This document shows positions 11,107 to 64,000 of a stretch of DNA of 64,000 bases, one piece after another. Source of the DNA: Amphirosellinia nigrospora. Its lineage: Eukaryota; Ascomycota; Sordariomycetes; Xylariales; Xylariaceae. The notes beneath the pieces were generated by a model. It had not been told where the DNA came from. It saw nothing but the letters and a program-made list of their open reading frames with translations, and did no database searches. Positions within the stretch are counted from its first letter, which is position 1. Each line of letters begins with the position of its first letter. The position numbers and the translations under genes are program-made. Location: positions 8,344,009 to 8,408,008 of the forward strand of contig SCHM01000003.1 of assembly GCA_004123355.1 (NCBI GenBank), written 5' to 3'.

Positions 11107-14100
11107 TCATATGTGACTTGGGCCGGGGCCGTAAACCTCTGTTTGGGCAGAGATATTCCCTGCAGAGTCCACAGTCATATAGGGAGCAGACATGCCCATA
11201 GGCGGCTGCGTAGGGCCTGGCGGACTAGAGTGTTGAGGGTAATGTTGTGCTCCTGGGTAGGGTTGCGGGATCCCTGAATACTGGGCGTTTTGGACCTGCG
11301 CCTGATATGGTGTATAACCGCCAACGTCAAGGTGAGTTTTGTATAGTTGGTCTCTCGGAACTCCGGGCTTTGCAGTCTTAAAGTGATCATCCCGTTCACC
11401 TCGCTGTTTGGCGATGAAAGTCGCGCTGCCACCCCTGGTCTTCGTTATGTAATCTTCGAAATTGGTCATAGTCTGCTCCACGATTTCAAAGTGTCGCTCG
11501 TCGAGAACTGCCATAAAACGTAAGCATGAAGTAGAGAGATCGGTAAAACAGAACCCGGAGGCCGTAGATTTTAGAGCTGCCCCAGGCCAAGACTATACCC
11601 GGCAGATGTGCTAAGTAGCCACTTACTTGGTCGAATTTGCGCTGCGCCCTCGTCGCGGTCCGCCTCTCTATCATAGAGAGCAAGTGATGCAGCTATCTGG
11701 ACCGCGTTTCGAATCTGACGTCCGTTCCATCGGCCCTCCCCGTTCTGCGCCGCATGCCGCTTCCAGTGTTCAACTACGAACTCACAGATTTGACTCTTGC
11801 GTATGAAAAGTCGATTCTGCGGTGTTGATCCCGGTCGTCGGTTTTCTATCATTTCTAGACGCTCCAGATTCATTTGCATGATCTGTTCAGTCTGAGTCAT
11901 ATCAAGCGCTGGGTAGTATAACGATAGGTGGACTCTTGATTTAAATGCTTCATCGAGAGTTCCAACGCGATTAGTTGTTAGGAAGAGAATACCATTGTAA
12001 TATTCCAACACTCTATAACGCAGTCATTAGTTAAGAGATCGAATATAACTTCAGAGGCAGACTACCGTAAAAAGACAGAAACCAAAGCGTTTCGTTGTAA
12101 AGCGCTTGTCTCCCTTTGCGATAGGAAAACATCGGCTTCATCCAACAGCAAGATACTGGATAGGACAGCCGGGTTAGATTATATATGTACTCGAGCGTGA
12201 GACACATTATGACTCACCAGTCCCATAGGTGTGCAAGCCGGAATATCTTACTAAGCGATGCCTCAACCCCTTGAGGGGTAAAACCAAGGTCGCCGCAGGT
12301 GATAACAAAAAGGGGTTTCCGGTGCCACAGCGCTACAGCCTCAGCTGTTGCTGTTTTCCCGACGCCTGGCGCCCCATGAAGTAATATTACAAGCCCTCTT
12401 CCCTTGCCCCGAATCAAGTCTTGGTCCATGTGTGATTCGGAAATTGATGAAGGCTCCATAGACTTCCGTTGGAAGTGTGTCCATACGACAGATTGGACAA
12501 TACGGATGTGATTTTTGTTAATCTTCAGGCTTTTGAACGGATCACCCGTTTTCACAATTGTGACGAAGGATTCAATAGCTCCTAAGAAGAACTTCCGCTC
12601 CCGAAGTGCGTACGCATATAAACGGTTTGGTAGCAATACCAAGTCCTCCGCCTCAAAATCAACATTGGGGGCCTGTCCCGGAAGGATGAATTTGTCTTTT
12701 TCCTGAAAGATATTTGACTCGAGTGTGAATATACCATCAGCGATGTACGTTCGGTCTTGTACGGTAGATAATGGCTCTTTGCGGTCCCGGTTAGGCCATT
12801 GAATGATCTCGATTGAATCTTGGACCACAGTCCAGCCTTGTTGTCCCCAAGGAACCGCACGCCAAAACGGCTGAGGGATATCCCAGGCCGGTATAGCTCT
12901 AATCGCTTCCTTCACATCTACAATTACGTCGCTTTCAATGTAGTTAACATTGTGAAAGGCTATTTCCCGAGCTTCAAGTGTCATTGACGCTGGGTCAGAG
13001 GGATGGTCAAGACCTTGTGCTTGTGATTGAAACTGTCTTTGGGGCCCATTAACAGGGGGCGGCGGCGGAAGAGGCATCCCTGCTGATCGCGGTACTGGCC
13101 TCCCTGGTGGTATTTGTGAGGAAGCGAAATGTCGCTGTGGTGGAGTTGCACGGCTCCAGCCGCAATATAACATGTGTCTGGAAGCCACAGCATCTCGAAA
13201 TTTCGAGCCCAATTCTTGTGAAGTCTCAAGTAGCTTTGCCCTGTCCGGATGAAATCGAAGTGGGTATATAGGTAAAGACGTGATTTCCATTTTACCCCCA
13301 AAGAAATGTATCGTGACGTTACCGGTAGAAGCGATATATTTCTCCCCAGTATAGTCCAGTGTATAGCAGAACACAGAAAAGAGATCATTCGTGGTTGGCG
13401 ATTTTTGCCGTCTAGGGACACACTAAAAGCTTCATATTAGAATGAAAACTCCATGGGGCCTGTCACGATGACGCTCCTCTGGAACAAAGACGAAGGATGT
13501 GTAAAGCCATTGATAGGAGACTAGCCTACAGCACAAGGTATTGAAGACCCTTTGCATGATAATAAGTACCATATTACGACCTGTATACAGGGTTCCCGAC
13601 AGGGCCGAAAATGATTCATCAGGAATCCTGTGAAGGAAAGGGGCGGTTTGTGAATGGAAACAGTGCTTAGAGCTCCGATGTGCTTGATGCATATAAGAAA
13701 CTTACTCACGTTAACATACTCTTTCTGAGCCCATGAATGAGTTGCTGTGGCATCTGGTTTACCTAGGTCTCGAACTCTTGCAATGCGAGGACTATCAAAT
13801 TGATAGCCCGGGTTGGCAACGTATACAAGCTCACCCACTTGGAACAAGTAAGAGAGATCTTGGTACCTCACTAAAGATGACTCTTGAGTATCAAGAGATC
13901 TATATTTAGTGGCATGTGGAATGATACGCTTATCCACAAACCCGACGTAGCATCGTAGCGCCAATAGAGTTTCGTAGCTCTCTAAAGTGCTCGCTCGAGG
14001 ATGTCCCTATCAACTCGCTTCGGGAGAGATTTGACTCCGGTTCCCAGAGAGACTTGTTCCTTTTCAGAACGAGTAACTTTAGATTCCCGGATGCTTTCAC

Positions 14101-14840
14101 GACCAGCGGCCTGTTTTTCTAAGATCGCTGCTTCCTCTAATGATGTGACTAATTCAGCAACTGTGGGCCATGTAGTTGCCCCTGGCGGGGGTCGACTATG
14201 CTTGAGCTGCTCTTCAAGCTCTTCAAGTTTAAGCTTCATCTTTTCTTGGGCATGGAAACCAAGTGAACGGACGGAAAAATGTCAACCGATTTTGGCCTTT
14301 CCATAAGAATGAACCATTAACATGTTGATTCTCTAGTACAGCGTGGAGAAGAAATAGCAGTGAAGGTGACTGAATTCGAACTCTGTGAATTATTTGCTCG
14401 TCCGAGTCGTCGTAATTGTCGCCTGGCTTTAATTCATCCGACTCCAGTAGGTCACGTCGTTTTAGCTCTCGGCGAACCTGCTCCTCAAAATTTGATTCGG
14501 CGACCAATACTTCAATGCAGTACTTTCCCTCACTTTCTGTGTATCGGTTCTTAAAGTGCTCGAAATCTACATCTCGAACTTGATGTACCAGATTTTCCTC
14601 AAATCCAAGCTTGTAGTCGTCGTCAAGGTCTGATGCATCTGATGCAGCGTCCGAGTCATCATCGGCATCTGACTCGAGTGTCCCAACTCGGTGTTCGAGT
14701 CTGCTTAATCGTGTGCTCACATCGTGATGAAGCGATATCAGTTTGGACTGGGATTCATGCAAATCCTCTAGTTTGCCCTTCGGAGACGAGGATGAGTCAG
14801 CGGGTTCTGCATTACCTGTACCCATTGTTGTACTCGGCAC
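11107..14840 (-). CDS. Fungal AAA ATPase with N-terminal DUF7025-type domain
   Basis: This is a fungal AAA+ protein of the type with a long N-terminal domain (DUF7025) and a single ATPase core; such proteins probably remodel other proteins, with unknown targets. Readable pieces in gene order: an N-terminus from ATG 14840 with an acidic stretch and coiled-coil-like helices; a DUF7025 segment (RIQSPSLL, RPFTW); an exon ending at 13710 (gtgagt donor); one from about 13422 containing DLFSVFCYTLDYTGEKY, ITSLPIYPLRFHPD and the Walker A HGAPGVGKT, ending at 12218; 12155-12066 with Walker B ILLLDEADVFL; 12012-11627 with sensor TTNRVGT and the SRVHLSLYY arginine-finger region; and 11507-11107, a Pro/Gln/Tyr-rich tail. 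Introns 12156-12217, 12013-12065 and 11508-11626 join in frame. The frame breaks by one base at about 14,255, and another break or unrecognised intron lies near 13,985-14,010. The segment 13,432-13,709 could not be resolved into exons. Confidence 0.85.
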
Positions 14841-15023
14841 GGGTTCGTGGCATTTATGAGTATGAGAGGATGTATAAAATTCGTTGTGGAAGAATTCTAG
14901 GTCCAGATACTAGGTATAACAGGGGGTTGAGCGGGAAGCTTTGAGTCTTAAAGTGCTTGCTAGCGTTTCCCTCTATTTGATGTATATTTGTACCATCGTT
15001 TTAACAGTAACCTACCCCTTTTT
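14841..15023. promoter_or_regulatory. Upstream region of the AAA gene, up to the transposon target site
   Basis: This short region of normal composition lies between the start codon of the AAA gene and the left target-site duplication of the large AT-rich element. It should hold the AAA promoter. The element therefore sits only about 190 bp upstream of that gene. I see no specific binding motif. Confidence 0.3.
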
Positions 15024-15031
15024 CGCTCGGC
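15024..15031. repeat. 8-bp target-site duplication, left copy (CGCTCGGC)
   Basis: The eight bases CGCTCGGC directly precede the left terminus TAGGGTTTGGA. The same eight bases directly follow the right terminus at 23,999-24,006. A perfect 8-bp duplication is the size made by hAT-type, and a few other, cut-and-paste transposases. Confidence 0.85.
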
Positions 15032-18000
15032 TAGGGTTTGGATTTTTTACCCAAAACCCATTTACCCAGAACCCATAAAAACCTATGTGGGCATAATAGG
15101 TTTTTTTTTACCTATGGGTTTTTTGTCCCTATGCTACCCACGTAGGTTTTTTGTACCTATACTACTTATATAGGTTTTTTATACTTATATTACTTATATA
15201 AATTTTTTTAAACTAATAGTACCGATAAGAATTATATTAAAATTAAGGTATTATAGAAAAAAAAATATAAAAGCGATTAATGTACTAATTTATATACTAA
15301 TCAAACTATAGGCAGTATAAATAGCTTATTTTAATTATTTATAAAAATATATAAAACATACTAAATAATATATAGTTTATTTAGCATAAATAAAAATGCT
15401 ATACTAAAGCTAGTATTAAAGCAGGAAATATTTCTAACTTTGGAACTATATAGTATTTTATTATCGCTAAATTGCTAAAGTTTAGCTAACCTAAATAAAT
15501 TATAATAATAAAAGTTAGCCTAAAAAAATTCTAAAACTAAATATCTAAAGCTTAAAATTTTTATAGCATGCTAAAAATAGTAAAAACGCTATAATAATTA
15601 GAAGTAAAAGCTTTAAAACTTAAAAAAAAATAATATTATAACGCTTTATTTTATACCGGATAAATTATAGTTTATTTTAATTATATAGATTAATATACCG
15701 ATTAATATATTAAATAAAGATAATATACTATTTAGTAATAAAAGCGGGCTAAATAGCTCGATATTAAGCAAAAAAATAAACTAATTACTTTTTAATATCG
15801 TTAAAAAATATAAACAAAAAATAACGGGCAAATTATAGTTTATCCGATATAAAGATTATAATAAGCGTAATTTTATCTAAAATAAATTTAATTAATAGTT
15901 CTGTTTTATTTAAATTTTAAAACCGAGCAGTTTAAAAAACAAAATAAATAAAATTTTAGAATTAAACTAATTAATATTAAAAAGCTTTAACTTTAAAGTA
16001 TAAAATTTCAAAAGAAAAAATTTAAGCGTTTTTTTAAGCGCTATATAAATTATAATTCGATTCTTAAAAAGTTAATAAAAAAGTTACTAGAAACAAAAAT
16101 AACAATATATTTTAATATAAGCTTATTAATGCTTATTATAAAATATAAGTAGCGTATTTTAAAATTACTAATAAAATTTTTAATATATACGTTTAATAAA
16201 GCATAAATTTTTATAATATCCGCTTTTTATTAAGGATATAAAAAATAATTAATAAAAAGTTTAAAATAATAAAGTTAAATAACCTAAAAACTATTAATAT
16301 ATATTAATTATTATAATTAAAAAAAAATACTTATTTCGAAATAGTAGTCCTGAATAATATGTTTTTAATTAAAAGTTAAAATATTAAAATTAAACAAAAT
16401 AAAAATCGAAGCTTATTTCCGAGCGAATTTAAAAATATAATCTAACGGCCCGAAAAACTTCGTATTTTTTTTTTAATATTTTTTATAAAATAATAAGTAT
16501 AATTAAGATTATTTTCGTTTAAATTAACAATTTTAAGCTTATCGCTTAAATAAACAAAAAAATTGCGATTTTTATTATTAAAATTAACGTTTATAGCTAG
16601 TTTAACTATATTAAAAACGTTAAAAAAAATAATATAATTATAAGTAATAATAATTTAATTAAAATGTTTATTTTTACTGTGATTAATAGTTATAATAATT
16701 AATAAAAAAATTAATATAAAATTAATATAAAATATAATTTTTGTTAATTTATTTAGTAATAAATTAATATATGTTTTTAATTTTTTTAAAGTAATATTTA
16801 AGTTTTTATTTCGCTAATTTTCTTGTTTACGTTTAATTTAACGCTTAATAGCAATAAAGTTTTTTTTATAAGCTTTTTAGCTTTTGGGCAAGTAGAAAAT
16901 ACGCGTACGAGCTTTCTACGTATATAAATTATTTAATAATTATAACTTTTTTTTGCGCTGTTTTAGCGTAGCTATATTAGTTAATTTTTTTTTAAACGCT
17001 TAAAAGCTATTTGCGCAAAAAATTAGTATAAAATTAATATAACAATAAAATTATAAAATATAAGTATAACAATTAAATAGTACAAAAATAAATAGTATAT
17101 AAAAAAAAAAAAATAAATATATATATAGTAAGATTTTACGGTTAAAATTATAAAACTAAATTTATTGATTAAAATTAGCTTTAAAAAAAAGCCGGCTAAT
17201 AAAAGTTATAAAAATTATAAGCAAAAAAAAAATATAATAATTAGCTAAAATATATTATTAAGAGGAAAAAGCAATATAAATATATATATATAGTATAAAA
17301 TATATATAAATAAGTCCGCTATTTTTCTACCGCTTATATAATTTACCGCTTTTTTAATTAAAATATACCTTTAAAAATTTTTTAAAGTTTTAATTTTTAA
17401 TTATTATTATTATATAAAAAAATATTTATTTTTTGGCTAAAATTTTTTAATAACTAAATATTAAAACGCGTAATCGTAATATGTTTTATATAAATAATAT
17501 AATAGTTAATATTTATATATAATTAATATTTAAGTTATAAAACTAAAAAAAACATATAAATAAATATTTTTATTAAATAAGCTTTTGTTGCTTTTTATAA
17601 AACTTTAATAACATTTTTCTAAAATCGGTATTTTTTAGCTATTATTTTAATAATTATTTTTTTTATAAATTGGGCAAATAATAAACGAAAAATTAATAAA
17701 TTATTATTTTATTAATATTTATAGATTTTTCGTAAAATATTAACTAAAGCAAAATAAACAATATTAATTATTATATTAATTAAATAAATTAATACTTTTT
17801 AGCTTTTACTGGCGCTTCCGGTTAACCGCTTTTTATATATATACTTTTTTTTTTTTAGTTTTTAATAGCTGCTAAATTAACTAAGCTATATTTTTATCCG
17901 TTTAGCGTTTTTATATTAATAAAAGCTTAAAAAAAGCAAGGTTAAATAAATATATAAAAAAGAGCTAAAATAAAAATAAACAAAAAGTTATAAATCGGCT

Positions 18001-21000
18001 ACTATTAATAAAAAAAAACTCGTTAAATATTTCCTTAATATTATAGTTAAACGTTTTTAAGATCTTTTACGTACTATTATATATTAAGCTATAAAAAATA
18101 AACTTAATAATAGTTAAATAAAAAGAAATATAATAAAATAAATAAATAAGAACTAATAAAAAAAAAAAAACAAATATAAAAAACTATAGCTTATATAGTT
18201 TTTAATAATAATAATTTATACTGATAGCGCAAAAAAAACAAATATATAAATTAATATATTTATTTAAAAAACTTGCTATTTTATTAGCTTAATAATAATA
18301 TTTCTATTAAAACGTACTATTATTTTATTATTGTTTATAATAAATTTTGCTGCTTTAAAGTTTACTTAAAACGATTTAAATATTATAATTAATAATAACA
18401 ATTATTTTATTATTAAAAGTTCGCCACTTCGTTAAACTAGAACTATTTTAGAAAATAATAATAATAATCTAATTTTTAAGCCGCCCTTTAATTATTCTTT
18501 TTTTAACTTAACGGATATACTGTTTATACTAAATATCGAAAATCTTTTTATTAACGTTCTATTACTTATTTTTAATAAACGTTCTAGCTACTCCGGTTTT
18601 AGTATTTATATAAGCTCCGATAGATCTATTAATAACGTCGAACTCGAAAAAATACTATCTAATACCGAAAAAACAAGCAATAAAACCTATTTCCGACTAT
18701 AAAAGCTTTTTTATATTATTTATATTAAATAATAATAAATAAAGCATTTAAAAAGTAGCTACGATTAAAAAATAATATAAAATATACGCTATAATAAAAA
18801 ATAATATTTATAAAATCGATAAAATATAAAATATAAATAGCTAAATATTAGCTAGTTAAAATAACTAAAAATAAAGCGCAAAAATAAATACTAAAAAGCT
18901 AAAACTAATCTATAAAAAGTATAATATTACTTTAACGCATATTATATATTTAAAGTTAAATAATATACGATTATTATATATTTATTTCGCTAGCAAAAAA
19001 TATAAGCAATAATTACGAAATAATATCTCTAACTAAAAGCTAAATATAGCAAATACGTTATATTTTATTTATATTAATTATATATTAATCCGATAACAAA
19101 CAATACTAATAAACAAAAACTAATACTTTATTCGTTTTTAAGTTTTAAAAAACTACCCGTTTAATTTTAAAAATAAAAATATAAAAATATTAATTATATC
19201 GCTTAATAATAAATAGCTACTACTTTATAGGAAAAAATTATTTACGTAATATTACGTTTATAATAACTTTTATATTTAATATTAACTTAACAGAATTATT
19301 TTTAATTTAATATTAAAATTATTAGCGATATATAAACTAACCCTAGCTAATTGGAATACTATTAAAAATAATAGTATATTTTATTGATAAATACTAATAA
19401 TAATATAATATTTTTATTAATATTTATTTAATAATATTTAAACAAATAAATATTAATATAAAATAAATTATTAGCTTTTTAAAAAAATATAACTTTTATA
19501 AATATTTAAATATATATTTATAATAATAAACTTAGCTTTAATATTAATTTTATTTAGTATTAATTAAATATTATAATTAATTGGAAAACTTATATTATTT
19601 ATTTTCCTTGCTTTTTTTATACTATTTAATTAGTACTAAATAACATTTTAAAAAAAATCGGCGTTAATAAAGCCGTTAAAACTGTCGAACAAGCTACGTT
19701 TATATACGAACAATAAACAAAAAATAAGGAAATAATATACCGTTTAAACATTATAAATAGTACAATAAAAAAAGTATATTTTTTAAATCTAATTAATATA
19801 TTAATCAATATATTAATTAATATACTAATTAATATAGTTTTAATTATTAGTAACGTATATTTAAAGTAGTATTGCCCGCTAAAAATAGTTTAAAAATATA
19901 TAAAAATCGTTAGGTTTAATATTTTAATTATCGATAGTTTGTAATATTAAAACCTGTTAAAACTTAACTATTTTTATATTATAAAAAATATAAAAACTAT
20001 AATTAGCTATTAAAAAAGCTATTAAGAAATTTTTAGCTACGTTATTATTAATAATATAATATAGTTTTATATTAATATATTATTATATATTATTTTGTAT
20101 TTTATTTAGCTTATTAATATTTTAGCTTTTTTAAATAAAACTACATAAGCTATATATTAACTAGCTTTATATTTATAAAAAACATTTTATAATATATAAG
20201 CAGTAGCTAAAAGCATAGCAAATAATATTTAACGATTGTAATAAAAATATATTAAAAAAATTTATTACTAATATCGATTTCGGTTAAAAAAAGCTTAATA
20301 AATATATTAAAAAGCTAAAAATAATAACTAGGATATTTTATACTAATAATATTACTTAGTCCTAGAGCTTTTATATAGCTTAATAAACTATTTAATAAAT
20401 AGTAAAAATATTTATATATAAAATATAATAACAAGTAAAATATAAAATACGCCGTTAATTTACTAAAATATATATATTATCCGTTTTAGCAAAAATATAA
20501 TTAGCAAGCAAAATATAACAATAAACTTTAGCTAATCTAAGCGAACTAATAATTTTTTTATAGTTTAGTCCTAATAAAGTATAATAATATTTTTAATATT
20601 TATATTTTAACTAATTTAAATATAGAGCTTATAACTACTAAATAATATTATATTATTACATAAATATATTATTAATAAGATCTTATTACGCTATAAGTTA
20701 TTTATTTTTTAAAAAACGATTAGTATTAAAATTAATATATAATATATTATACTAGCTAAGATTAGTTAAGCTATTAATAAACTATCGAACATATTTTACT
20801 TAAGCTTATAGCGCTTATATAAAATATATTTTATATAAGTAACTTTTGTTATGCTAGAATATATATATTATTTGCTTATAATATTTATTTTAAACAAAAT
20901 AAATTATCCTTTAGCATTTTTCGAGCTTTTTTATATTATTTATATATATGTAAGATTATACGCCAGCGCTATTAATCGCTTTATATATAAATGCTTTTAA

Positions 21001-23998
21001 ACAAAAAGCTATTTAATAAAAAATAAAAAAAAAAAGCAACAATAAATATATATAGCTAAAATAGCCTAAAAACTTATATAATTATTTCTTTTTAATATAA
21101 ATACTCTAACGATTATTAGTTCTAGTTTATAGAATTTTTAATATTAATAAAATATTAGTTTTCGGCCCGCTAATTATTTTAAAAATAAAATTAAAATATA
21201 TATCTTAAAACTTATCTTTAATATACTAAAAATTAATTTTATATAAAACCTGCTATATAAAATCTTGCCCTTTATAAAAACAAAAGAATAAAAGGTTAAA
21301 ATTAAATTAATTTAAATTTATTAAAACTAGCCCGAAAAACAGTATAGATAATATTAAACCGCTAAACAATATAGTTTTTTTAACTATTATAACTTTAATT
21401 ATTAATATATAGTATACTTAAAGTTCTCGTAAATAAAACTTATAACTAAACAATATTTGTATAAAAATATATATACTAATTATATACTAATCCTAAAACA
21501 TAAAAAAGCAAAAAAAATTTTTTTAAAAAAAACGTTTTTTTTTTAAAAAATATAGATCTACTTTTTTTAATAAAAATAAGTCTTTATTTTACTATATAAA
21601 GAACTTTTATAATTTTTCGTACTATACTGCTTTTAATTTTTTATAACTATTTTTTATTTTATATAGTATATATTAATTCTTTATTATATTTAAAATCTTT
21701 GTTAGACTTTTTGCTATATACTTAATTTTAATTAATTTTTTTACTTTTTTTGGTTAAATCTAACTATTATTAAGTTTTTAGCTAGTTATAGATTAATCGC
21801 TTTATTATATAAACTAAAATAGTAATAAATAAAAAACCAAGTATATTTGTACTAATTATTATACTAATCGATATAGTTATTTTGCGGCTATTAAAATAGT
21901 AGAGCAAATAGTATAAATTTAAACAGATAAGCAATAAAATATCTGGAATTTATAAATAAAGCTTAAATATATTAATATATATATTAATTATATAATTAAA
22001 TTAACCGAGCTATATATTAAGCCTAAAAAATTAAATATAGAAAAACTATAAGCGTTATATAAAAATAATAAAAAAGCAGTAGTAGTAATAAAGCAATAAC
22101 TCTAAAATTTAGCAGAGTTCGAGGAATAAGCCGAAGCCTACGAATAAAAGCGCTAAAAACTTTTACCGCTTTAAACTTCGTTAAAAAAAAACAATAAAGC
22201 AACTAAAAAAAAAGCTCGAAAATCTAACTTTTTAAAGCTAATAATATATATTTATTTATTATTTGCTAACTATTTTTTATATTAATAATTATATTAATTT
22301 ATTTTTAAAAAGGTTTGCTATTAAATTAATAGCTTTTTAATTTATTTAGAAGTATAATTCTTATTATTATATTAAAAGTTAATATAATAATAGCTTTAAA
22401 TAATATATTTAATAAAGCTATAGTAAACATTAAGCCGGAAATAATAAATAATATTACTACTAGTATATAAGCAGGTTTTAATACTATAAATAAACTTTTT
22501 TTAAACTAATAAAAAGACCTAGTAATAAAAAAAAGCTATAAATAAACAAACTAGTAAGTATGCTTTAATTTATAATTTATATATTAATTTATATACTAAT
22601 CTTACTATATAACTACCTATTAAAACAGGTTTTTATACTAAAAAAAAAAAAGCTATAGAAAAAAGTCCTAGTGCTTAAAAGAAAGGGGCTACAAAAAAAG
22701 TCCTAGTGCTTAAAAAAAAGGGGCTACAGCAAAAAGTCGTCTTATTAAATCCGATATACCGCTAAAATCCTAAATAATTATACTTAAATTTATTTTTATA
22801 TATTAATCGGTATATTAATTTTGTTATATAAATAACTTTTAAAAAACTAAAAAATATTATAAAACTAGGTATAAATATTTTCCTAAGCAAAAAATAACTT
22901 TTATAGCTAATAAAAAATCCCCGCAAGCTTTTAGCTCTTAAACTTTAACGTATAAAAAAAGTTCGAAAACTAGTTAAAAAAACTAGGGTTTTTATAAGTA
23001 TGCCTACGCTTAAAATAGCAAATAAAAACTAGCTAAAATAATCCTCTAGTGCTATAAAAAGTTAGCATTTAAAAAATAGCATATTTTATATTATTATATA
23101 ATTTAGTTTTAAATAAAGCTTTGTAGAAAATTTAGCGGCTTTAAAATAACTTATATCTAGTCCTATTAATTAAAAAAGCATTTTTTATCTGTATTATAAA
23201 GATATTTTATATAGCTATATATTTAACGCCCGTATTTAAAAATTTACTATTATAGCTTTAATAAAAGTTTTTAAAAGTACTATTATATTTTTATAGCTAA
23301 TATATTTTTATATTAATATTATACTAATTTATATATTAATTCGCTTATTTAGCGGCGTATCTTATAATAATATATATTAAGCGTATTATATTTATACTTA
23401 AAAATATTTATCTAATATTCGCTATTATATAAATAACTTAATATTTTAATATCGATATTTTTATAACTTTTAATTATTTTTTATTTATAATATTATATTT
23501 ATTAAAAGTTATATAAAAATAAACGAAAAAATTACTATAAAAGTTGCTACAAAAAAAAATAAAAAAGTATAAGCTTAGTTAAAACTCGCTCGAAAACAAA
23601 AAAACCGAAAAGTTTAGCAGCAATAAACAATACAAAGCAAAAATAAATAAGTTCGAAATATATATTTATTTAACTTATTGCTAAGATTTATCCTAAAATT
23701 AATATAAAAATTAATACATGCTTACGCAATAATTATAGCTAATAAACAATTAATCGATAAATTTTAACGTTAATTATAAATAAACTTTACTTTTAATTTA
23801 ATATTGCTTATATTTTTACTTTTAGTCGTAAGTAAAACCTACTTAAAAAAACCCATAGGTTTTTCTAAGTACCTAAAAAAACCCATAGGTTAAAATACAT
23901 GGGTTAACCCATTAAAAAAAACCCATGGGTTTTTTTGGGTACCTAGAAAAACCCATGGTTTTCCGTGGGTACCCATGGGTACCCATTTCCGAACCCTA
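15032..23998. mobile_element. Large RIP-degraded class II DNA transposon (hAT-like by TSD and TIR)
   Basis: This is an 8,967-bp, extremely AT-rich block with clear ends. The left end reads TAGGGTTTGGA (15,032-15,042). The right end, read inward on the other strand, is TAGGGTTCGGA (23,998-23,988). The single mismatch is T versus C, as expected from RIP. Inside each end are many inverted copies of an acccataggtttttt-type motif (15,053-15,180 and 23,835-23,985), in opposite orientation on the two sides, like subterminal transposase-binding repeats. The 8-bp duplication CGCTCGGC flanks the element. No intact open frame survives. Decayed coding-like stretches, such as around 22,110-22,230, carry many stops where Trp codons could have stood. 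An 8-bp duplication with a TAGGG terminus fits hAT. The large size also allows a KDZ-type (Kyakuja/Dileera/Zisupton) or other class II element. The class is an inference; the boundaries are seen directly. Confidence 0.8.
22665..22734. repeat. 35-bp tandem duplication inside the AT-rich element
   Basis: Two adjacent copies of a 35-bp unit beginning gtcctagtgcttaaaa and containing ggggctaca lie at 22,665-22,699 and 22,700-22,734, with few differences. They keep G/C runs that are rare elsewhere in this block, so they either resisted mutation or duplicated after it. Confidence 0.7.
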
Positions 23999-24006
23999 CG
24001 CTCGGC
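23999..24006. repeat. 8-bp target-site duplication, right copy (CGCTCGGC)
   Basis: This matches the left copy at 15,024-15,031 exactly and directly abuts the right terminus of the AT-rich element. Normal-composition DNA resumes immediately after it. Confidence 0.85.
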
Positions 24007-24638: not shown

Positions 24639-26675
24639 GTGCGAAGATCAGCACAGATTCATATCCGGTCAAGAGCCTCCATCACAGTATGGCCTACGAT
24701 CCCTTTTAATTATACAGAAACTCGCTTACACGATCCGAATAGGAAGTTGAAGAATATGCTTATATTGTATCAGACCTCAGTCCATAGTACAGTATCAACT
24801 ACCACCGGGGTATCAAATTGGTTTGAATATAGTTGGGAGGACGTCCTTGCACAGCTTGAAATGGCAAAAGCCAGTTGTCTCGTCAGCAATCAGAAGCATC
24901 TCGCAAAGTGGATCGCTTTTTAGCAAAGGCGGCAGCATATACAGAAAAATGGATTGACTTGATTCCGGACGAATACGGCCTTTCAATCATTCGGGGGGGG
25001 CTCGGACTAGTTTTTGCCGTTTGTTCTTGAACTTCAATCCTAGCGCAACCTCAGTCACTAATTCTAGCACGTTACAGACAGCGATACAAAAGGTCGAGAA
25101 CCTAGAGAAAATCATTTTGACGTTTGAAGATATCCCGGATATGATAAGAACAATGGAAACAGCGGTGTGTACCTTCGATCTATTTTTAAAGAGTATACAG
25201 CGTTCTGAAGATGTGGGATTACACTGATGCGTTGTACGGTATCAGTACAAGTTGTTTGGCTCTGACGGAGAAGAAAACGTTGGGGACCTTGCGAAAGCCT
25301 ACTTTGACGAGCTATGCTCAGATATTCCCGACCTCATCCAGATACTAGATGGGAAAGCCTCCAGTAAGTCTTGTTTGACTGCAGGACTGACATATAATAA
25401 CGCCCAGAAGGGTTTAAACGAACACTTAATAGGCTCGCTGCTGGAGTTCCCGAGACAAACAAGATTGACGAAATTTTGGAGAGAATTGGAAGGAGAGCAA
25501 GGAAACTTGAATTGAGTATCAAACGCATCAAAATGAGGCTCGACGCAAAGGAACGATCGGAAATATCTGCCATATGGGAAGAATCAAAGAGAATCCAGAC
25601 TCGAGTGGGCTTCATCCAGTCAAACATACAGCAATTGCCAACTCGATCAGACTTCGATCATGCTGTCGAAGTGTTAGAACGATCTATATTGCAGAGAATG
25701 GAAAAAGAACTAAGGTCCAGATTTAAACATATGATGGATCAGACACAGGGAGAGTTAGCAGCGCTGGCGAAGACTCTTGTTTTCAACATGGTAGAAGAGA
25801 ATGCAGCATTAACAAACCAGAACGCGCAACTCACCGCCCAGAACAAAGACATTGAACCCCAACGTTCTACCCAGCCTTCGCCAATTGTCGGACCATTTTT
25901 ATCAACATTAGACCTCATGCGAATCTTAGATGTCGACCATCACCAGCCAACCGAAGACCTCCAGTTTGTACTAAAGCAAGCGGTTCGAACCAGCCCCGAT
26001 GACAAAGGCCGCGCCAGGTGGTTGATGAGGACTCTAAATTTCCAGAACTGGATGAGAGGGCCTAGGCATGCCCTCCTATTAGTTGATGGCGCAATGACAC
26101 TGGAAAAGGTTTCATCAATGTCAATTCTTGTAGCCACATTGACTATTAACTTACTCAATGCACCGTCAACGGTGGTTTTATACTTTTTCTGCGGGAAAAA
26201 CCTCGACCCCAGCGCAGAAAATTGGCTTAGCGGGCCTCATGGGATGTTGCGAAGTTTGATCACACAGCTTATGGTACAAATCAAGCCTATGTCCAATCTA
26301 GGTGGCATTAATTCCCGCAAATTCCTGCAGGACTGTTATAAACACGACTTCCCCGCGTTGTGTGAGGTTCTGAAGCTGTTAATTGAACAGCTGCCGCCGG
26401 ACACCACATTCTACTGTCTTATCGATGGAATTTCTTGGTACGAACAGGAAACCTGGGTTGGTCACATGCGCTTCTTTGTTGGGTTATTTAGGCACTTGAT
26501 GGCGCGCAATGGCGGGCCACCTCTGAAAGTTCTTATGACTAGCTCTAATAGAAGCACGGAGCTAAGAGGTTTGCTACGGACAGAATGGGAGTATGTTTCC
26601 TTAGCAGGAGCGAGCGTTGACTCTTTGCCACTTGTCTCACCACCTGTTATAGCTGCAATGGCTCTTCTCCAATAG
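24639..26675 (+). CDS. DUF7708-type STAND-like protein, N-terminus uncertain
   Basis: This resembles fungal proteins that start with a DUF7708 helical domain followed by a degenerate NACHT-like NTPase region; relatives are associated with non-self recognition, and the function here is unknown. WIDLIPDEYGLSIIRGGLGLVFA (codons near 24,949-25,018) is the DUF7708 signature. Intron 25,019-25,077 (gtttgt...ttacag) and intron 25,364-25,407 (gtaagt...gcccag, 44 nt) both join in frame. The last exon (25,408-26,675) encodes a long amphipathic/coiled-coil helix, then ARWLMRTLNFQNWM, LLLVDGA, VVLYFFCGKNLD, GMLRSLITQL and CLIDGISWYE (Walker-B-like), ending LKVLMTSSNRS. No canonical GxxxxGKS loop is seen. 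One base shifts the frame near 24,890-24,905, and the piece 25,210-25,260 is unresolved. The true start is unknown and could lie further upstream. Confidence 0.7.
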
Positions 26676-27540
26676 ATTGGCGTTAACGCGAGGATAATGT
26701 CACAAGGGCTCAGACAGAGGGCTTGGAATAGGTTCAATTAAGTAATTAGCAACTACGGTGCCAAAGGGGCCATATAGATCTAAGTTCTTATTCTCTCGAA
26801 ACGAGGATTCGTGCCCTTTTATGCTTAGAATTCTCTTTTCCTTCGCGGACCTCCGCCAACCTAACTAAAGACCTGACCACGAGTAGAAGGGAATTCTAGG
26901 TACAGAGGTCTATGCCACAATTGATAATTATCCTTGACAGCGGATCATAGTGCAAAGAACTTAAATTACCCTTATTGTATAGTTAAAGCAAACGCTCTGT
27001 AACATGCGGGCGGTTGCATAGCCGCTCTACCAAAACGCCTAGTAATAGATTTTATTGCGTTTTTTATTCTTGCTTTAAAATTATTATATAAATCGTTCTA
27101 AAGTCCTCGCTTTTAGCAATTTTAAGAACAGCAAACAAAACATGAATCTATTTCACCTTTCTAACTCCGCGATGTCCTAGCGGACTAACATGTTTAACGT
27201 AGAAGAGGGCGAGCCTCCGGAAATCGTATACAAACGCCGCTCCAACATGCCATAGACACGCCCGAAAACCTTTCAACCTTAGCTGACCAAACCATCCAGA
27301 AGGGCAATTCACGTTCAAGAACCAGATCCGGCGAATGTTTTTTTAGACTTGAATTAACGCTCTACTAGGCGCTCAATTCATTCCGGAATTCGGGCAGCCT
27401 GCTCGAGTTTATCGCCTTGCTGCCTTATCCTTTCCCTAGTATAAAGTCTTAGTTAGCTACGTTTCTATTAACTTATAGTTAGCTCCTCCAGGCAAGCAGT
27501 ATCAAATACAAATTGTGCCAAGGAAGCTAATAAAGCTTAA
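26676..27540. other. Intergenic region, nothing recognised
   Basis: This lies between the convergent DUF7708-type gene and the FunK1 kinase gene. There is a short AT-rich patch around 27,040-27,130. I find no RNA gene, repeat pair or conserved frame. Confidence 0.5.
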
Positions 27541-29912
27541 TTAATCTGCCTTTACTAGTGGGTCGTTCTGGCCGTCACGAAGGATTTGTGTCATCCGTGA
27601 ATATAGTCCGCCGTCTGTGTGTTGCCATCTTCTGCCGTTAGGAAACACTACCCTTCGCAGCTTGTTAACCCAAGGGATTAAAGGTCGGTAGTATGATGTA
27701 AAATTGCCTTCCGCAATGCGAACGAAATCCTTTTCATCAGAGATTATCCCTTTCTTATCACGTGCTAGTTCTCCGGTATTTAGACTATTCCACTTCTCAA
27801 ACTCAGTAGCCTTACCTTCCTGGCCCGGCCCCTTATAGTGGATACATACCCAGAAGAGAACCCAAAAAAACGACTCAAGGTCATCCATAAAGGTGTGGTC
27901 TTCGCCCATGAGGACACCAATTGCCATAAAGGCTCTCGTGCCAGTGATTCCTTTCGCACCTGATGCTTCTGTTCGATCAACCTCAATTGCAAGGTCTAAA
28001 TCAATCAAAAACGAGGACAAAGAAGATTGCGTGCTGCCTTGCTTTATCATGAGATTGTTGATCGAGATATCTCTGTGTAGGAGGCCTGCCTTATTGTACA
28101 GGGATTCATGTCCTCGAATACATCCTTCCAAGGCACCGAGCAAGACAGCTCGGGAACTTGCCTTGTAGATAGGCTCCCCATAGTCGCAGAGAATAATGCG
28201 TCGGTGTATTCGATTAGGAAGAGGCTCGTTATCGTGCTTTGTTGGAGACGCAGAGCCTGAACGAAACCGTTTGCCAGGTGGAAGCAGGGCACCAGTCTGG
28301 CTAGATGATCGCTTTGCGCCAGGGGAGCTATTACGCGATCTGGCTCCTACCGTCAGGGTCCGCAAGTTACGTGCGCGTCCCGTTCGATAGTTGCTTGCTC
28401 TTGTAATATCCAACCCTCCCGCACATTACCCTGGATGTCGTCATCTTTTGCCTGTATACGTACTGTCTCGTGGTAGTAATGCCGCGCCACGTTTGTTACC
28501 TCTCGATGCGTCGCTTGCTGCAGCAGCTCGCCTTCCTCGTCGCGTTCCGGGAATTGCCATGAATCCTTAATAACGAAGGGCTTGGACTTGTCTGTTTCTA
28601 AGTATGCTTTCCAGCAGATGGTTGCACGGCCCACTATGCTATGCGCCGATCTGATGACTTTGTTTAGAATGAGACGCTCTATTTTTGTGTCTTGTTGGAT
28701 CTCGATGTATTGCTGATGTTCCGATTTGATGATTGTAGGGTCGAAGCCGAGAGCCTCATCGTCCATCCAAAAGAAACCAAGAATCGTCGATACGAAACGC
28801 TGTCCGTCCTTGTTGATGCTGAACTTTTCCGATGCAATGCCTCCAAGCCGGTCGAATTCCAAAGCCGCATCCAATCTCCGCACAGGGTAAAGGCCAGAAC
28901 AAAGCGCCGCGTAGGTTGGGCAGTAAAGACCTCCCTCACATATCTTGCTATGTCGAGATGGGCCTTCGATGCTGAATCGTCGTTCGGGTTGCTCTTTAGC
29001 TCGCCAGGTATCAGGATATGTGACCAATGGTACTTCCCGTCTTTATTGGCCTTCGGGTCGTCCACAAGCCCAACGTCCAGCTTACGCTTCGCGACCGAAC
29101 CCCGAGTGGCGTGTCGGGCTGTGCCAACGGCCTCCGCATTGTTGTTGGTCTGTACTCTTGCGCCCATTGCAGAAAGCGCTCGACAATGTCGGCAAGCCAG
29201 GCAAGAACGCTTTCTTGCTTGGCATCTCCTGGCCATGCCGTCCAGCCTTCTCGAAAGAGGGGTTGTATCCCTTGTGTACACTTCTGGAAGATCTCTTCGG
29301 ACGCCGTCTCGAGCTGTGGAATGCCACCCCAAAATGCTTTATCAAAGTCTGGAACATCGACGTACATAACACCAAGTTCGTCACTCAGTAACTTATCCAT
29401 CTGATCTCGCTTCTCGGAAGAATTCACGACGCTGCTTGTACTAAGGCGCCATGGTGTCTGTAGGATAGAAGAGATGGTTTGCGAGGAGGTGTAGATTCGG
29501 TCACGGCATCGTAGACTCGTTCCCAAATTTCAAGATCGGGTCGGTGGGCAAGGACGGCATACAGAAGAGGTTTAATTCGGTCGGAGTACAAAGCATCGGA
29601 AGCGATCCTAGAAATGAGTTTTAGGATATCGCCGCTGAGATTGCCCTGTCTTGTTTGAGACGGCAGGAGGCGGGAGGCTCCATGGTTCCGTAGTAAGGGG
29701 AGAAGGGAAACGCCTAGATCCTGGATGACTAAATATATACTTATTAGAACAGAAGCACCTTGGGGAAGATTGCAATTGCATTTACCGTCGTAGCTAATAG
29801 TTTCCAGCTCCGCAGGGTCTTTGACGATTTCCTCAAACGAAGTGCACACCGCATTAAGATATGTGCTAAGAGGATGGGCTTGAATAGTTGCTAGCTGGTT
29901 CGGGTCCATCAT
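27541..29912 (-). pseudogene. FunK1-type fungal protein kinase, with four frame breaks
   Basis: This is a FunK1 (Pkinase_fungal) family member, a large expanded family of fungal kinase-like proteins of mostly unknown role. Start ATG is at 29,912; intron 29,729-29,785 (gtaaat...atttag) joins in frame. The N-terminal region holds YDAVTESTPP and LLSDELGVMYVDVPDF. The middle holds KRKLDVGLVDDPKA, HWSHILIPGELKSNP and EFDRLGGIASEKFSINKDG. The kinase half (27,541-28,413) has RRIILCDYGEPIYKASS, the catalytic loop LLHRDISINNLMI, FLIDLDLA in place of DFG, GTRAFMAIGVL and DLESFFWVLFWVCIHY, then NKLRRVVFPNG before the stop. The conserved protein switches frame by single missing bases at about 29,460, 29,100, 28,860 and 28,414, all beside short homopolymers. 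If these are sequencing errors, the gene is otherwise full length; if real, it is dead. Confidence 0.8.
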
Positions 29913-30130
29913 AACGGTGGCATCGTGCGAAAGGCGTGTGTGGTGGTGCGTTCGGTAACCATTGTTAGGAGAGAAAATACTTAAACAAAACCAGACAAGA
30001 CGCGTCGCGCGGCCCGATGGGCATGGGCATGTGTGGCGCGATAATGTGGCTGTGTGGCTGGGGATCCTCGTCCCCCAGCTAGGTAGTTATATAGCCTATA
30101 TTGTGCGTGCTTGTCAACCTATATTAAGTA
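29913..30130. promoter_or_regulatory. Upstream region of the FunK1 gene
   Basis: This GC-rich stretch precedes the kinase start and ends where the AT-rich block begins. It contains tgtggcgcgataatgtggctg near 30,033-30,053. A closely similar string occurs near 3,642-3,663, upstream of the weak minus-strand coding traces there. No defined site can be named. Confidence 0.3.
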
Positions 30131-30945
30131 ACCTATAAGGCTTTCATTATTGCGGTTTAAGCTATATAGATTAGGTCTTAATATATTAAGTTAGTTTATT
30201 AATAAAGGGCTAAATTTAGGTTTTTTAGTAGGCTAAATATTTATAACTATAAAATAAAGCTAGTTTATAATATTTATTAAAGCTTTATTAGTTATTATTT
30301 TAAAGCTATAATTATTTTTTTTTTTAAATAATTTTTTTAATTATTTATTATAATTAATATTTTTATAATAAAACTATTTATAGTTTAGCTATTTTTTATT
30401 ATTATTAAACGTTTTTAATTATTTTTATATTATTTAATTAGCGTATTAAATTTTATATAATAGTTATTATTATTATATATAAAAATAAATTAATTTTATT
30501 ATATTTATTTAATAATTAAATTTTATTAAAGCTTTATAATTTATAAATATTATTATAATAATTTATTATAGCTTATAGTTTATTATAAAAAGTTTATTTT
30601 ATTATTACGTTAATATATTTATATATTTAGTTTTTAAATATAAGTTTAAATTAAAAATTTTTTTTTTTATAAATAAACTTTAATTTAGTTTTTAAAAGCT
30701 TTTAAATTATTAAAATAGTTTTTTTTATAAATATTTCGTAATTTTATATTAAATTTTATTAAAATTCGACTTTTTTTTTTCGGTTAAGTTTTTTATATAT
30801 TTAAAATTTTAATAAATAATTATTATTAAAAAAATTAAATATTAAATAAAAAAAAATAGCTATTATAATTATTTAGTTTTAATATTTAATTATAAATATT
30901 TATAGCTATTTATAAAAATAGCTATATTAAAATATTTATATATTA
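30131..30945. repeat. AT-rich block of about 0.8 kb
   Basis: This is an extremely AT-rich stretch without open frames, sharply bounded by DNA of normal composition. It looks like a RIP-degraded repeat. I cannot find terminal repeats or a target duplication that would define an element; cttgtcaacc at the left and ccaacaag at the right are only weakly complementary. Confidence 0.5.
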
Positions 30946-31102
30946 AACTTGCCAACAAGTTGGTCCAGACCACCGCACTGGTCTGGCGATGTCCCCCGGT
31001 AGCATTAGCAGAACCACTGGCCGGTCCGCGCTAGACCCCGCTGGACCGCTGGGGTCCCCGCAAAATACCACTGGGGTCGCCCCACCGGGACCCGCAAACC
31101 AG

Positions 31103-62579: not shown

Positions 62580-63719
62580 ACTCGTAAATTATAATTAAAT
62601 ATAAATAAACTATCTTTAATATTAAACTTAAATTTAAACTAGCGTCCTTTTTAAATAAATAATACGATTTAAATATAATAGCTTTTTTTTATTAATATTC
62701 GAAATAATTTTTTTATAAAATTTATATATTATTATTAAATAAATTATATTTTTTATATTTATTTAATTTATTTTTTATTTTTTTTTTGTTTTTAATACAA
62801 ATAAAATCTATTCTTTTTTTTAGCTATATTTATTATAGTAACTATTTTATTTTATTTTAATTTTGCTTTTTTTTTTTATTTAAAGTAATTTTTTTAAAAA
62901 TAAATTATTTTATTTTATATTAATTTTTATAGTTTAGCGTATTTTTTATACTTTATAAAAATATAAACTTATTTATTACGTTTTTATAGTTTAGCGATTT
63001 TTTTATTTTATAAAATATATAAACTTATTTATTATATTTTTATAGTTTAGCGTATTTTTTTATACTTTATAAAAATTAAAACCTATATTATTATATTTTT
63101 TATAGTTTAGTATATTTTTTTATATTTATAAATAATAAAAACTTATTTATTACGTTTTTATAGTTTAATATTTTTTTTATATTTTATAAAAATATAAAAT
63201 TTATTTATTACGTTTTTTATAATTTAATATATATTTTTATATTTTATAAAAATAAAACTTATTTATTACATTTTTTATAGTTTAACGTATTTTTTATATT
63301 TTGTAAATATAAAACTTATTTATTACGTTTTTTATAGTTTAGCGTATTTTTTATATTTTATAAAATATAAAACTTATTTATTATGTTTTTTATAATAGTG
63401 TATTTTTATATTTAAAAAATAAAACTTATTATATATTTTATAGTTAGCGTATTTTTATATTTATAAAAATATAAAACTTATTATAAACTTGCTTATATCC
63501 GCTAGGACTTATTTATTATATATAGCCTCGTTTATATAGTTTTAAAAATAATACTTGTTTTTATTATTATATTATAAGTTAATAAAAAAAACTAAAAACT
63601 AGGCTAAAGTTTAATAAAATAGCTAATTATTTTTTAAAAATTAAAATAGTAAATTATAGCTTTTTTTAACCGAATTGTTAATTTAATATAACTATATAAA
63701 TAAAAATTCTATATTTTTA
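62580..63719. repeat. Subtelomeric tandem repeat, copy 3, truncated by the telomere
   Basis: This begins tactcgtaaattataattaa, contains the aaactagcgtcc block, a 60-bp array (62,925-63,485, the most length-variable of the three) and the agcctcgtttatatag block. It then stops inside aaattctatatttttatt, where TTAGGG repeats take over. The equivalent point in the other copies is about 58,388 and 61,066. Confidence 0.85.
62925..63485. repeat. 60-bp subrepeat array in copy 3
   Basis: Roughly nine to ten units of the tatagtttagcgtatttttt type, with many short deletions compared with the other two arrays. Confidence 0.8.
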
Positions 63720-64000
63720 TTAGGGTTAGGGAGGTTAGGGTTAGGGTTAGGGTAGTTAGGTTAGGGTAGGGTTAGGGTAGGTTAGGGTTAGGGTTAGGGT
63801 TAGGGTTAGGGTTAGTTAGGTAGTAGGGAGGTTAGGGTTAGGTTAGGGTTAGGGTTAGGTTAGGGTTAGGGTTAGGGTTAGGGTTAGGGTTAGGGTTAGG
63901 GTTAGGGTTAGGGTTAGGGTTAGGGTTAGGGTTAGGGTTAGGGTTAGGGTTAGGTTAGGGTTAGGGTTAGGGTTAGGGTTAGGGTTAGGGTTAGGGTTAG
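63720..64000 (+). repeat. Telomere, TTAGGG repeats
   Basis: The plus strand is G-rich (TTAGGG) toward the end of the window, as expected for a right chromosome end. The last ~130 bp are nearly perfect units. The first ~150 bp contain shortened units (ttagg, gttagg, ggagg) that may be true proximal variants or single-base sequencing deletions. TTAGGG is the standard repeat of filamentous ascomycetes. Confidence 0.98.

Follow-up and report, generated by a model that had tools for sequence, protein, structure and literature searches.

We analysed a window of 64,000 nucleotides from the fungus Amphirosellinia nigrospora (contig SCHM01000003.1, positions 8,344,009 to 8,408,008) and focus here on an AT-rich block of about 9 kb within it. 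An earlier note, made from the sequence alone, had interpreted this block as a DNA transposon (class II) that made an 8-bp target duplication and was ruined by repeat-induced point mutation (RIP), and both the flank matches and the pattern of mutation at CpA that we report below bear this out. We are highly confident that the block is a dead, RIPped copy of a hAT transposon, from a family that carries two genes similar to histone H3. Our confidence covers what was observed (the ends, the duplications, the family, RIP, and the genes of sister copies) together with the mechanism of transposition. It excludes the function of the histones, which we weigh separately.

Boundaries and gene remnants

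The element occupies window positions 15032–23998 (8967 bp) and lies between identical octamers CGCTCGGC. Comparison of the flanks identifies these as a target-site duplication (left copy at 15024..15031, right copy at 23999..24006, neither assigned to a strand). The left end begins TAGGGTTTGGA at 15032, and the opposite end reads TCCGAACCCTA and stops at 23998, so the ends and the octamers directly outside them are exactly as had been claimed. From the sequence and from matches to the ends elsewhere in the genome, we recognise a terminal inverted repeat of 11 bp (TAGGGTTTGGA at 15032..15042 on the plus strand and TAGGGTTCGGA at 23988..23998 on the minus strand) with 10 of 11 bases identical. 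hAT ends often begin like these two. Inside both ends, families of subterminal repeats had been reported, and acccat/atgggt units are indeed visible by eye at each. (They were then mapped to 15043..15221 on the plus strand, and the repeats at the right, which are of the ACCCATGGGT type, to 23825..23987 on the minus strand.) Mapping of a 10-bp motif, TGTACTAATC, placed one subterminal pair at 15281..15302 (plus strand), which is RIP-altered, and another at 23697..23718 (minus strand), which is heavily RIP-altered in this copy. The GC content per kb is 0.46–0.49 outside the element versus 0.14–0.21 within it, with a drop at 15 kb and a recovery at 24 kb.

Between the ends are the remnants of four genes. 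We read the gene models in three unmutated sister copies (L009, L010, and L011), with predicted introns removed and the sequence otherwise unaltered. From left to right, these are gene D (15331..17010, minus strand; 496 amino acids, with an open spliced frame in L010 and L011); gene C, which is histone-H3-like (17410..18131, minus strand; 183 amino acids, open only in L009); gene A, the hAT transposase (18340..21392, plus strand; 959 amino acids, open only in L010); and gene B, with an H3-like domain that follows a long stretch rich in basic residues and proline (21819..23646, plus strand; 468 amino acids, open only in L011). In every other combination of copy and gene the frame is broken, except that D in L009 has a shifted end. 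Because the host H3 gene (L065, C4:3288684-3292684) also seems to have frame breaks, uncorrected single-base indels in the assembly are a likely, though unproven, source of the breaks in the element's genes.

A family of long and short copies

To find relatives, we compared the first 201 bases of 15024..24006 and the reverse complement of the last 207 with the same genome (48.1 Mb in 11 contigs). The left end had at least 42 matches and the right end at least 39 (including the window's own copy and matches to internal repeats). Of the 33 left-end matches that start within the first 10 bases of the query, 18 start exactly at base 9, which is the inferred terminal base. With this many matches, and so many of them starting at that base, the ends and octamers are not due to chance, and the search for further copies that had been proposed was successful within the organism's own genome.

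Pairing the matches gives 12 long copies: that of the window and 11 others. Nine of these span 8.8–9.0 kb; the other three span 15, 26, and 57 kb, and the fetched ends of those are only partly element sequence. The 8-bp flanks match at all positions in eight long copies, at 7 of 8 in three (each difference being a transition), and at 5 of 8 in one (L016). As a control, we scored 132 mismatched pairings of left and right flanks, and the best score was 5 of 8.

We also fetched 21 short loci (6 + 15). Five of these have one end and were dropped from the counts, which leaves 16 two-ended short relatives of 248–343 bp. Their flanks match at 8 of 8 positions in 12 cases, at 7 in L034, at 6 in L026, and, as scored, at 1 in L031 and L039. 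(By eye, the flanks of L039 read 8 of 8 with an offset of one base.) L034 is inserted in another transposon-like reading frame, for which there is a paralogous empty site: C9:162850-163088 aligns across the insertion point, lacks the copy, and has a single GTCGAAG. The two sites are 82% identical overall; two gaps, of 18 and 3 bases, lie about 20–45 bases to the left of the junction.

The three unmutated copies differ from each other by 3–9 substitutions and 13–38 gap columns over about 9 kb. As they are nearly identical and occupy three different 8-bp targets, they must have moved recently. L009 and L010 are on contig C9 and L011 is on contig C4. Both long copies on C9 are unmutated, versus 1 of 10 long copies elsewhere, and C9 might be an accessory, RIP-poor chromosome.

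The GC content is 0.42 in each of these three copies and 0.10–0.17 in six RIPped full-length copies, including the window's. Relative to L011, the window copy has changed at 919 of 1,077 CpA sites (85%) and at 43–59% of sites in other contexts, with 3 reverse transitions. Across the six RIPped copies, 0.85–0.94 of CpA sites and 0.40–0.75 of sites in other contexts have changed, and the excess of C-to-T changes at CpA is found on both strands. The transversion distance from the window copy to the three unmutated copies is just 0.15–0.16%. Because the changes are biased towards CpA and transversions are so few, it follows that the window copy is sister to the unmutated ones but was itself mutated. 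Computational reversal of RIP was unneeded, as L009–L011 are unRIPped and nearly identical. The 16 short copies have kept a GC content of 0.33–0.38, in line with the length threshold for RIP of about 400 bp that is given in the available text of PMC6710886.

The transposase and the class of the element

The protein from gene A contains the hAT C-terminal dimerisation domain (PF05699, 39.9 bits, cut-off 21.4) and is similar to Hermes (phmmer, E = 6.4e-5, residues 748–814). The alignment to Hermes is significant in this C-terminal part only; the parts around TSDMWT and TRWNST are below significance. In order, the protein has the strings TSDMWT, CDNGPS, CFSH, TRWNST, and LERIWSF, which may represent the D, D, CxxH, RW, and E of hAT transposases. 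A candidate BED zinc finger near the N-terminus scored 11.8 bits, below the cut-off of 20.6, and was absent from a later Pfam listing. DUF659 scored 10.2 bits, below its cut-off of 34.7, but some hAT families lack this domain. A KDZ model is part of Pfam, and no element protein had a KDZ-type match in Pfam at E ≤ 1. Gene D had no Pfam match above cut-off. In the search of the genome, all 13 matches of a piece of A and all 10 of a piece of D fall in the family's long copies. An Rfam scan of the window returned nothing at gathering scores.

Judged by these protein matches, the element is a hAT transposon. The earlier note had favoured hAT but considered about 9 kb to be long for this superfamily, and it proposed a comparison of the transposase with hAT and KDZ profiles. 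The unmutated sisters made this comparison possible, and it favoured hAT. The unusual length is accounted for by the three genes beside the transposase (B, C, and D), two of which are histone-H3-like. (The typical length of hAT elements is about 5 kb, according to the available text of PMC6710886.)

Two divergent histone H3 genes

Both B and C contain the histone-fold core of H3 (PF00125, 71.2 bits for B and 115.9 bits for C, cut-off 26.4). Their best matches among solved structures have E-values of 2e-20 (B) and 8.5e-30 (C). Among the best 60 of 176 matches, the PDB chains are all of H3 type, and those of C are led by H3.Y and H3.3. The canonical N-terminal tail of H3 was not seen in either translation. 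The N-terminal region of B is instead basic and proline-rich (48 K+R, 31 D+E, and 43 P in 290 residues) and includes one RGRP and one ARKS. At the Y of RYKPG in host H3, both proteins carry W, and loop 1 of C is one residue longer than that of host H3.

Two predicted phase-1 introns fall at the same positions in B and C: one interrupts the second codon upstream of ALREI, and the other lies in the codon that aligns to the Asp of FEDTN in H3. The exons of host H3 and CenH3 are uninterrupted at both of these positions. As predicted from the sequence, the common introns argue that B and C are an old paralogous pair and were not copied recently from host transcripts. The introns carry the case for paralogy because identity alone does not unite the two: of 88 aligned core residues, B and C have 36 in common (41%), while C is identical to pieces of host H3 at 17/27 and 27/49 residues and to pieces of CenH3 at 20/33 and 29/49, and the corresponding values for B are 14/27 and 25/49 (host H3) and 18/32 and 28/56 (CenH3).

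A search of the genome for histones gave 16 matches, of which 6 are in L009–L011 (three of B and three of C). The other 10 comprise four host H3 or CenH3 matches, two H2A/H2B-like matches on contig C10, one on C9 that resembles an H3 pseudogene, and three that are unassigned (L066, L068, and L069). Among these 16 matches, we saw no second family of H3-bearing elements. The H3-like pseudogene on C9 (L064, 4200–4900) has several frame breaks and is about 4 kb from a short family copy. A pattern-based search of IMG/VR confirmed no relatives of C; three stretches fit a pattern only.

A paired motif outside the exons

Allowing at most one mismatch, TGTACTAATC has 37 sites in L011, versus a mean of 0.74 and a maximum of 4 in 200 base shuffles. 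These sites form 18 clusters, 17 of which are pairs or triplets 11–12 bp apart, in both orientations. The motif is present in 13 of the 18 predicted introns, and the other five clusters are in spacers or near the ends. None of the 370 motif bases overlaps an exon, even though exons make up 70% of the element. The exact double pattern occurs 32 times in the genome, always in the three unmutated copies or in two short copies. With up to one mismatch, 13 of the 16 two-ended short copies have a pair 12–14 bp apart, and 15 have at least one site. The transversion rate to the RIPped copies is 0.0073 in the motif and 0.0089 in other noncoding sequence, so the motif is not measurably more conserved there. 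The simplest reading of the pairs is that they are putative protein-binding sites.

Chromosomal setting

To the left of the element is a gene for an AAA ATPase with DUF7025 and AAA_lid_13 (11107–14909), as the earlier note had stated. On the other side, where it placed a DUF7708-type gene, the open reading frame scanned (25401-26672) scored as NPHP3_N, and DUF7708 was not listed at E ≤ 0.01 in that frame. The right-hand neighbours (25401–28425) are this NPHP3_N gene and a fungal protein kinase. TTAGGG telomere repeats form the end of the window (63700–64000) and of contig C5, so the element is about 40 kb from the chromosome end. A second AT-rich block begins at about 47 kb, and a short separate dip (30001–31000, GC content of 0.18) lies between two normal stretches.

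Discussion

As a mechanism, we propose that transposase A would recognise the ends and the subterminal repeats, excise the element, and insert it elsewhere, duplicating 8 bp of the target. The two-ended short copies would be mobilised in trans, and a length below about 400 bp may let them evade RIP. The paired TGTACTAATC sites would be the likeliest DNA mark for a binding protein that the element encodes.

For the histone genes, we see roughly even chances that B and C are H3 variants that belong to the element, descend from one intron-bearing H3 gene, and serve the element. They might package the element, or the transposition complex, in chromatin that lacks the normal H3 tail and so avoids the silencing marks of the host. 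Anti-silencing is one of several ways in which they could serve it.

Several observations weigh against this account of the family and its histones. All four genes are never open in the same copy, and the flanks of L016 match no better than the controls. All of the introns are predicted, and the first search for them demanded a branch-like sequence that overlapped the TGTACTAATC motif, which is mildly circular. The identity of B to C (41%) is below that of either to the pieces of host H3 or CenH3 (50–63%). In normal H3, ARKS surrounds the silencing marks, and the ARKS at residue 99 of B speaks against a tail without marks. Finally, transversions to the RIPped copies have no overall excess at third codon positions and thus give no signal of selection by codon position. 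(The counts at positions 1/2/3 are 22/25/18 for A, 25/13/11 for B, 2/5/7 for C, and 13/13/11 for D, with the phases of A and C being approximate because L011 has frame breaks in both.) The transversion rate in exons (0.0044) is half that in noncoding sequence (0.0087), which could be due to selection or to base composition; the test is not decisive, as the divergence is star-like.

A different explanation, which is possible but which we doubt, is that the H3 genes are passengers that were captured from the host and do nothing for the transposon (the transduplication reading; Manning 2013, Dhillon 2019). The available text on the published elements interprets them as captured H3 transcripts, and the lack of a selection signal by codon position within our family would fit. 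However, the introns predicted in B and C, two of which are at common positions where host H3 and CenH3 have none, are not what a retrocopy would show. Also, B and C are each fully open in one unmutated copy despite being only 41–63% identical to each other or to host proteins. And a published element of similar size, which we compared by its description in the available text, also carries up to two H3-like sequences (PMC6710886).

It is unlikely that B and C act for the element in a centromere-like manner or in segregation instead of against silencing. C aligns to CenH3 (29/49 and 20/33) about as well as to host H3 (27/49 and 17/27), and its loop 1 is longer by a residue. In contrast, the PDB matches are to H3-type chains, with H3.Y and H3.3 first for C (best 60 of 176), and an element, once integrated, would not require its own centromere.

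The other alternatives concern the element itself. That it belongs to KDZ, or to a class II superfamily that is undescribed and makes an 8-bp duplication, as the earlier note had allowed, is very improbable: the length, the extra genes, and the low score of DUF659 would suit this view, but the hAT dimerisation domain is above cut-off, Hermes is matched, and no KDZ-type match was found at E ≤ 1. Despite the extreme base composition of the block, it is barely conceivable that the octamers and ends match by chance in an AT-rich isochore, and chance and isochore origins are ruled out by the flanks (7–8 of 8 bases in 11 of 12 long copies, versus at most 5 in the 132 control pairings) and by the paralogous empty site of L034.

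Comparison with known elements

Hermes makes an 8-bp duplication. Our hAT family resembles Hermes and classical hAT elements in this duplication and in the C-terminal dimerisation region of A, but it differs from them in its length of about 9 kb and its three extra genes.

hAT elements that carry H3 have already been described (PMC3538342, PMC6710886). In the available text of these papers, the histone genes of fungal hAT elements are viewed as accidental captures of host H3 that were destroyed by RIP in some species; PMC6710886 describes the capture of a host transcript, dated in one clade to about 100 million years ago. The features of this published kind (a hAT domain, an 8-bp duplication, and an H3-like gene inside inverted repeats) are all present here. 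Like our family, the element of Pseudocercospora fijiensis (Dhillon et al. 2019, PMC6710886) has a hAT domain and an 8-bp duplication, is RIPped, and lies in AT-rich blocks. According to the same available text, its full length is 9.5–9.9 kb, with one or two H3-like sequences in each element; its copies are RIP-inactivated, the H3-like sequences lack introns, and dimerisation and other domains were not identified. By this description, our family differs in having three unmutated copies with spliced open genes, PF05699, gene D, and the motif pairs. The H3L hAT element of Pyrenophora tritici-repentis (Manning et al. 2013, PMC3538342) has near-identical copies, as ours does, but as described in the available text it is about 5.6 kb and has one H3-like gene. 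The available portion of PMC4994206 reports no histone-carrying element. Our element is thus of a known kind, the H3-carrying hAT elements. What is new relative to these descriptions is the intron-bearing H3 genes in unmutated copies, the two common intron positions, the paired 10-bp motif, and gene D.

More speculatively, an old lineage of fungal hAT elements may own a divergent, intron-bearing pair of H3 genes (C with its tail replaced, and B fused to a basic RGRP region), along with gene D, and may use these with the paired TGTACTAATC sites to form its own chromatin and evade silencing. We hold this only tentatively. If it is true, then the published H3 "captures" in Dothideomycetes would belong to the same lineage, and a housekeeping gene of the host would not have been captured independently each time. 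The Pseudocercospora elements are open to being re-read by the same intron test.

The unmutated family shows what such histone genes are like before RIP: two divergent H3 proteins with common introns. If the pair is old and belongs to the element, then a mobile element codes for nucleosome components of its own, and chromatin made by a transposon would become directly testable.
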